Part shown: piece after piece, positions 24,169-25,352 of the stretch
Position numbering within the stretch: the first letter of the stretch is position 1
How the letters are laid out: every line of letters begins with the position of its first letter
Source: Enterobacterales bacterium
GTDB lineage: Bacteria; Pseudomonadota; Gammaproteobacteria; Enterobacterales; Enterobacteriaceae
Assembly: GCA_015655145.1 (NCBI GenBank)
Contig: JAATFO010000133.1
Location: forward strand, 1 to 64,000
Length of the DNA stretch: 64,000 bases
Direction of reading: 5' to 3'
Notes under the pieces: model-generated
Database searches by the model: none
Seen by the model: the letters and a program-made list of their open reading frames with translations, nothing else
Told to the model about the DNA's origin: nothing
Made by a program: the position numbers and the translations under genes

Positions 24169-24229
24169 CCTGGTCACCGCACCGGGACCGCCTGAATACC
24201 CGGTTTATCCCCACGCAGGTGGGGAACAC
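24169..24229 (-). CRISPR. Single type I-E CRISPR repeat with one possible spacer
   Basis: The 29-bp repeat at 24201-24229 reads on the minus strand GTGTTCCCCACCTGC then GTGGGGATAAACCG, the E. coli/Salmonella type I-E consensus including its palindromic stem. It lies 83 bp past cas2 on the leader-proximal side. The next 32 bp (24169-24200) have exactly the length of a I-E spacer, but no second repeat closes it. The spacer call is therefore inference. Confidence 0.82.
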
Positions 24230-24312
24230 TCTAAACATAGGTACTTATTTTATAACCTTTTTTATCACTTTAAAAAGTTACCCACTTTTTCTGATTTTTA
24301 AAGAACTACAAC
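24230..24312 (-). promoter_or_regulatory. Probable CRISPR leader
   Basis: 83 AT-rich bp between the cas2 stop and the repeat, the place and composition of a type I-E leader, which drives array transcription and guides spacer integration through IHF. On the minus strand it ends TATGTTTAGA directly at the repeat. I could not pick out a confident IHF site. Confidence 0.6.
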
Positions 24313-24606
24313 CTATTGAATAATATCAGGTTTAAAAGACACCAGCCGCAAGCCATCAAGGTCTACCGGCTCCCGTCGATTAAGACCCCAAGTCTGAAAT
24401 TCAAATCCGGATTCATTGTTCGTCGCCCACGCCATAACCACATTGCCCTCGTCGGCCAGTACCGTCACTTGTTGCCAAATCATTTCCCGAACCTTGAGTG
24501 AGGTATCACCGACATAAACTCCGGCGCGGACCTCCAGCAGCCAGACCGCAAGCCGCCCGCGTAAACGAGGAGGGACCGCTTCCGTAACCACCATCAACAT
24601 CGCCAT
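24313..24606 (-). CDS. cas2: CRISPR-associated endoribonuclease Cas2 (type I-E)
   Basis: 97 residues, close to E. coli Cas2 (94), and uninterrupted: [70 protein letters not shown]. In the I-E system Cas2 is the dimer core of the Cas1-Cas2 integrase. ATG at 24606 (MAMLMVV) or 24600 would both work; the former is 4 bp after the cas1 stop. With Cas1 reduced to its tail, Cas2 cannot support adaptation, so its intactness may only mean that the deletion is recent. Confidence 0.93.
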
Positions 24607-24610
24607 GCGC

Positions 24611-24840
24611 TTATCTGAACCCCTCATCACCGATCTTTTTCGCTTCCGGAATAGCCACTGGTTGCGCATCATCCGGCGGTGGAGGCGGCTGAATACCGCC
24701 GGCAGCAAGTACCTCTTCAATCAACGGGATAAGTTGTGCCAGCATTTTACGACTACGGAAAATATCCCGACAGGCCAACCGTACCACTCGATCAGGGTTC
24801 TCCGGGCATTGTGCCGCGATTTCAAACGCTGCGGTCACGC
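24611..24840 (-). pseudogene. cas1: Cas1 C-terminal remnant (type I-E)
   Basis: Only the last ~75 codons remain: [75 protein letters not shown], matching the helical C-terminus of E. coli Cas1. Catalytic Glu, His and Asp of the integrase domain are missing. The sequence begins at a deletion junction with cas3 near 24830-24840 in a different frame, so no Cas3-Cas1 fusion protein is made from the cas3 start. cas2 follows after 4 bp. Confidence 0.9.
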
Positions 24841-25352
24841 GCCGCATGGGAATATAATTCATAAGGCAGGGCCAGATCGTTTTCTCGCAAATCCGCCACC
24901 CGAACCACATAGCCATGGTGACCACACACCGCTTCCAGCCAGGGAAGCCAGTGCTGACGCGGATGCTCATCAACATCGGATACCACCGCGTCATAGCAAC
25001 ACCAGTACAACCCAGCCGGACCGTGCGCCAACCGGGTTTGCGCCTGTGTAGGGAAACGACTGCTTTTACTTTCCGGGTTCAACGCCAGCCAGACATTCAG
25101 CGCCTTTGCCTGAAAGCGGATGTCCAGCTTACCAATATCGTGCAGGGCGATAAAAAAGAGCAACCATGCCCGCTGCCGTTGCGCTTCTGACCCGCGAACG
25201 CACAATGCGTGGCGCAATACCGCATCATTATCCAGCCAGCACGCCGCCACGGCGGTGACGTCCAGTGCATGATAAATCAGTGGATGAAATGATACCGCGC
25301 CGTCCGGTTCTACCGGACGGCATTTTCCCCAATAGCGGTAATGCCCTTCCAT
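24825..25352 (-). pseudogene. cas3: Cas3 N-terminal HD domain remnant (type I-E)
   Basis: About 175 of ~890 codons. The HD nuclease start is readable: YRYWGK, HPLIYHALDVTAVAACW (H28, D31), LFFIALHDIGKLDIRFQ (H71-D72), HGPAGLYW, WLEAVCGHHGYVV (H145-H146) and ELYSHAARDRS. It then enters cas1 sequence out of frame and stops. The helicase domains are absent. A good ribosome binding site (AAGGGAG) precedes ATG at 25352, so a truncated HD protein could still be made. In E. coli cas3 heads the cas operon, consistent with the orientation here. Confidence 0.9.

Follow-up and report, generated by a model that had tools for sequence, protein, structure and literature searches.

The decay of type I-E CRISPR-Cas loci is a familiar process. 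The locus described here is closest to complete type I-E loci, with which it shares gene identity and order (cas3, cas1, cas2, leader and repeat) and a location between lpd and acnB that is common to four relatives; in contrast to these complete loci, it lacks the stretch from the middle of cas3 to late in cas1, and its array amounts to one repeat. A second point of comparison comes from phages, in which, according to the excerpted text of one study, Racr RNAs are transcribed from solitary repeat units, often directly behind a predicted promoter, and two type I-E Racr candidates inhibited a type I-E system (PMC10651486). Like the phage units as they are described in that excerpt, the locus considered here holds one CRISPR repeat without an array; unlike them, its repeat follows cas2 and a leader and occupies the position of the former array. 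An excerpt from work on Pectobacterium describes strains that carry both type I-E and type I-F systems, either one, or none (PMC6963963).

The window, by which we mean the whole 64,000-nucleotide stretch of DNA that was analysed, carries the locus on its minus strand. Read from 25352 to 24201, this strand gives the first ~174 residues of Cas3, the end of cas1 out of frame with it, cas2, a leader and a repeat. The first-pass annotation had described a collapsed type I-E locus consisting of a cas3 head, a cas1 tail, cas2, a leader and one repeat; each of these pieces was found in the order and on the strand that it gave, and the description was borne out by Pfam, PADLOC and alignment. We consider it highly probable that the locus is what decay has left of a type I-E system, with the lpd-acnB interval as the likely home of that system in this lineage and a separate type I-F system in the same assembly.

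The truncated cas3 (24822-25352, minus strand; Pfam, PADLOC and alignment) retains the N-terminal part of the HD domain. Its open reading frame of 176 amino acids begins at an ATG preceded by a GGGAG motif and matches Pfam Cas3_HD (E 9.8e-28, profile positions 1-137 of 207) as well as PADLOC Cas3e (E 1.1e-21). In the alignment the fragment is colinear with eight type I-E relatives up to an AARDR stretch, and its stop follows two codons later, which is two codons beyond the junction with cas1. The HDIGK and GHHG motifs are retained; the aspartate of (A/S/C)DWLGS, which we take to be a metal ligand, is present in all eight aligned relatives and absent from the fragment. The helicase is likewise absent, and the full HD nuclease and helicase of a functional Cas3 are thus lacking. 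A scan of genome contigs with the HD fragment as query returned three distant loci at 39-40% identity, which were uninformative.

Of cas1, the C-terminal ~75 codons remain (24611-24838, minus strand), in a frame open to the gene's own stop and identified by alignment and PADLOC (Cas1e, E 5.8e-20); Pfam gave no match for this frame, and the Pfam Cas1 model was also silent on it in the genome search. The adjoining cas2 (24313-24606, minus strand; Pfam, PADLOC and alignment) is complete, encoding 97 amino acids that match Pfam at E 1.3e-36 over all 86 profile positions. None of the three gene remnants contains a stop or a frameshift, in agreement with the earlier statement that cas2 and the cas3 HD fragment are still open. 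The pair needed for type I-E spacer acquisition is nevertheless broken, with Cas2e whole and Cas1e reduced to its end. Behind cas2 lies an AT-rich CRISPR leader (24230-24312, minus strand), recognised by its likeness by eye to the leaders of six type I-E relatives and by blastn, in which positions 24201-24729 matched one relative (L084) at 69%. The leader is followed by a single 29-nt type I-E repeat (24201-24229, minus strand), identified by a pattern search of the assembly and by comparison with relatives, and by a 32-nt stretch of spacer length (24169-24200, minus strand).

Among 392 genomes of the family, 70 (that of the window included) gave Cas3-HD matches, and 53 of 295 genomes gave Cas2 matches. 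The eight best Cas3-HD relatives were read (G031, G170, G292, G189, G011, G061, G048 and G386). In four of these eight (G031, G170, G292 and G189) the interval between lpd and acnB holds the type I-E locus; three of the four loci have all genes sought, and that of G170 has collapsed in another way. The colinear gene pieces, leader and repeat of the window thus stand at a site that a type I-E locus occupies in relatives. The lpd gene adjoins the type I-E locus in G031 and G170 and is more distant in G292 and G189; for G061, G048 and G386, no match to lpd or acnB was found within the stretches fetched.

The locus had been placed between lpd and acnB, which holds closely on one side: lpd (25540-26967) is the immediate neighbour, and acnB (15332-17929) is separated from the repeat by 6.3 kb that contain an IS6 remnant, a gene for an AraC-type regulator and one for an FAD monooxygenase. 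The IS6-family remnant (23332-23929, outside the CRISPR locus) is ~600 bp long, with inverted ends at 23333-23348 and 23914-23929 and without a long transposase frame. The adjoining 58 bp at 23275-23332 recur at 95% within 30 bp of the ends of two other contigs of the same assembly, C68 and C23, and are possibly part of a repeated element that interrupts the assembly. The AraC-family regulator (21943-22770) and the FAD-dependent aromatic-ring monooxygenase (19600-21096) were compared with nine stretches from relatives, which gave only a weak monooxygenase match of 23% (L090).

The cas part of the remnant has one junction, leading from inside cas3 to inside cas1. Alignment with type I-E relatives, the check proposed with the first-pass annotation, placed both deletion ends and narrowed the junction to 24826-24839 (minus strand), a zone that, judged from sequence and alignment, fits both cas3 and cas1 and possibly represents a short microhomology. 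We infer that a single deletion removed the cas genes and that it made use of short homology. It would have run from cas3 codon ~174 to about cas1 codon 230, taking the Cas3 helicase, cas8e, cse2, cas7e, cas5e, cas6e and most of cas1. Six loci of relatives have both a cas3 and a cas1 landmark, and in these the two lie 7342, 7159, 7490, 7503, 7242 and 7457 bp apart; three of these loci are at the lpd-acnB site and three elsewhere, and each matches cas3, cas8e, cas7e, cas5e, cas6e, cas1 and cas2. Extrapolating from these relatives, the deletion would measure ~7.2-7.5 kb, so that the earlier estimate of roughly 8 kb was right about a large loss and too high as to its size (7159-7503 bp in six of six relatives). 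A deletion driven by an insertion sequence was considered and found no support: none was seen at the cas3-cas1 junction, and the IS6 remnant is on the opposite side, ~270 nt past the repeat.

A junction of this kind could also arise if a complete type I-E operon exists and was skipped by the assembler at 24826-24839, and the assembly (4,175,798 bases, contamination 0.1) is indeed a draft of 156 contigs, 91.68% complete, and was judged from the contigs as assembled. We searched it with a joined query of six type I-E proteins from relative G189 (cas3, cas8e, cas7e, cas5e, cas6e and cas1, with Cse2 left out); only the cas3 and cas1 fragments of the window were returned, together with a weak match in the type I-F cas1. 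There is one copy of cas2e. A skipped operon would usually be expected to survive as a contig of its own, as most of the type I-F operon did, the assembly holds no further repeat, and the same site shows a different collapse in G170. An assembly or chimera artefact is therefore very improbable in our estimation. The same six-protein search gave no match in the assembly to the Cascade genes cas8e, cas7e, cas5e and cas6e. Since Cascade, the Cas3 helicase and Cas1e are missing and the HD site is incomplete, type I-E function is lost, and the leftover locus, judged from its gene content, cannot interfere or acquire spacers as a type I-E system.

The loss had been attributed to a single event, which can be true of the cas genes at most, where there is one junction; cas2 and the leader separate the cas deletion from the lost array, and the array must thus have shrunk through further change. 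In the sequence of events that we favour, a second change would have stripped the array down to its leader-proximal repeat. One may postulate instead a stepwise erosion, in which nested deletions and array contraction succeeded one another and the visible junction records the last step only. Loss of the array beyond cas2 and the leader implies at least two changes in any case, and the partly collapsed locus of G170 (L085), in which cas8e has less than half its length and runs straight into a CRISPR repeat, provides an example of erosion at this site. The window, however, shows only a single junction in the cas part, and three remnants with intact frames would leave little time for many steps; we hold stepwise erosion to be possible, if rather unlikely. 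The collapsed locus of G170 resembles that of the window in its lpd-acnB site, its place in the Cas3-HD clade and its internal deletion, and differs from it in its breakpoints, its cas3 frame being whole at 896 amino acids. No cas7e, cas5e, cas6e, cas1 or cas2 was found in the G170 stretch read; the G170 genome gave no Cas1 match with a model that also missed the window's short Cas1 tail, and it is absent from the set of 53 genomes that gave a Cas2 match.

A different arrangement is seen in G011 (L089, L090), where a lone cas3 frame of 849 amino acids lies just past acnB, repeats flank acnB on both sides, and a Cas1 match lies more than 700 kb away. The type I-E system of G011 is possibly split.

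By a strict pattern, the arrays of the four relatives with a type I-E locus at the lpd-acnB site comprise 44 repeats (G031), 15 (G170), 15 (G292) and 42 (G189). The repeat of the window differs by one letter from that of G031 and, with up to three mismatches allowed, was found nowhere else in the 4.18 Mb assembly (reversed control pattern, 0), so that the repeat-spacer array of a functional type I-E system is absent. Rfam at its gathering threshold gave three matches, none of them CRISPR, and did not report this repeat. No second repeat follows the 32-nt stretch at 24169-24200, which is possibly the leftover first spacer; the only two matches in phage records fall within the repeat, and the first 24 nt of the stretch had no exact match among viral contigs.

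The repeat itself has counterparts in phages. In Klebsiella phage KP13-16 (OP617741.1, 19360-19394; L140, 601-635), 34 of 35 nt agree with the type I-E repeat and six letters on its leader side, the matching place being an intergenic gap that bears no annotation, and a Salmonella phage (PP856722.1) matches at 90.9%; on sequence grounds, both look like phage solitary repeat units and hence Racr candidates. These two records of the same repeat kind, together with the reported inhibition by two type I-E candidates (PMC10651486, as excerpted), raise the question of whether the remnant is still used, with Cas2e or an RNA transcribed from the leader and the single repeat keeping a role such as Racr-like binding of Cas proteins, and cas2 is indeed complete and the leader like those of relatives. 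No type I-E effector that such an RNA could bind was found in the genome, however, the genome's type I-F repeat differs, and recent decay accounts for the intact frames equally well; continued use thus seems to us extremely improbable. The leader, solitary repeat and cas2 might still be expressed and functional, for example as a chromosomal Racr-like RNA that soaks up the Cas proteins of type I-E systems arriving on mobile elements, a more specific form that we likewise hold to be extremely improbable. As the repeat occupies the old array position behind the leader and cas2, descent from an array is a simpler reading than a solitary unit of the phage type.

Returning to the decayed remnant, its age can be gauged from the divergence of its pieces. 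Mean protein identity between the window and relatives is slightly below that among the relatives themselves for all three pieces, at 45.6% versus 48.3% for the HD fragment (eight relatives), 67.3% versus 69.8% for the Cas1 tail (six relatives) and 80.0% versus 80.4% for Cas2 (six relatives), and differences in the remnants are far more frequent at third codon positions than at first and second positions. This third-position excess, together with identities near those of the relatives, suggests that divergence took place mostly under constraint and that, measured against it, the loss is recent. Type I-E function thus appears to have been lost fairly recently relative to the divergence of the relatives, which does not imply present-day use. 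In a Cas3-HD tree of 15 rows, the window and all eight relatives form one clade apart from another Cas3 kind (100/99), and the place of the window among the eight has no firm support. In a Cas2 tree of 35 rows, in which two of 31 inner branches are firm, the window groups with G073 (94/87) and away from the lpd-acnB loci (90/87); the G073 locus has another Cas3 kind and is located elsewhere than between lpd and acnB. Vertical descent at the lpd-acnB site is likely, although the Cas2 tree leans against it; the genus is represented by one genome in the comparison set.

The first-pass annotation had further read the locus as a record that adaptive immunity, and adaptation itself, had recently been lost. 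The recent loss stands for type I-E, and a search for a second array or further cas genes, which it had proposed, spoke against the remainder. The Pfam model reported a single Cas1 in the assembly, a Cas1f on contig C11 (8978 bp; L093, 1-8978), where it forms part of a nearly complete type I-F locus: cas1 (7205-8191; 328 amino acids), cas2-3 (3927-7211), csy1 (2161-3486), csy2 (1223-2164) and csy3 (186-1205) are all full length and on the minus strand, and csy4 is represented by its start (56 of 181 positions), the rest being cut by the contig end. An array with at least five full repeats extends from 8663 to the end of C11 and runs off the contig, and a second array of 25 repeats (L131) occupies 13750-15220 of contig C82. 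This system is of another subtype than the remnant, and its 28-nt repeats differ from the type I-E repeat; the C11 and C82 stretches read contain 28 spacers, each 32-33 nt long, and by eye their two leaders resemble each other. The assembly (contamination 0.1) is the basis for assigning C11 and C82 to the same organism as the window. With full-length cas1f, cas2-3f and csy1 to csy3 and type I-F arrays present, we rejected a loss of adaptive immunity from the genome as a whole; the cell would instead retain CRISPR through this separate system.

One of three type I-F spacers tried with exact 24-nt pieces matched an IMG/VR viral contig (IMGVR_UViG_3300048929_000037). This is the second leader-proximal spacer of the C82 array, matched over its whole length at 31 of 32 nt. 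The usual type I-F motif is CC, and the matched protospacer is preceded by TTC, hence by an imperfect CC. The whole C82 array had no match among phage records. The type I-F system presumably works. Among nine hand-picked genomes, csy4 occurs in three, namely this one, G061 and G048, and was not found in the four relatives with a type I-E locus at the lpd-acnB site, in G011 or in G386. We do not claim that type I-F excludes type I-E, as G061 and G048 carry csy4 and also type I-E loci with all genes sought.

Judged by titles and abstracts, a search of an open-access library listed no paper on this locus, which looks like a plain instance of a process already known, that of ordinary gene loss. 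The lpd-acnB interval offers a snapshot of CRISPR loss, with three type I-E loci among the genomes read that have all genes sought and two, those of the window and G170, that have collapsed differently. It also calls for caution, in that one broken locus does not equal lost immunity when a type I-F system is kept in the same assembly.
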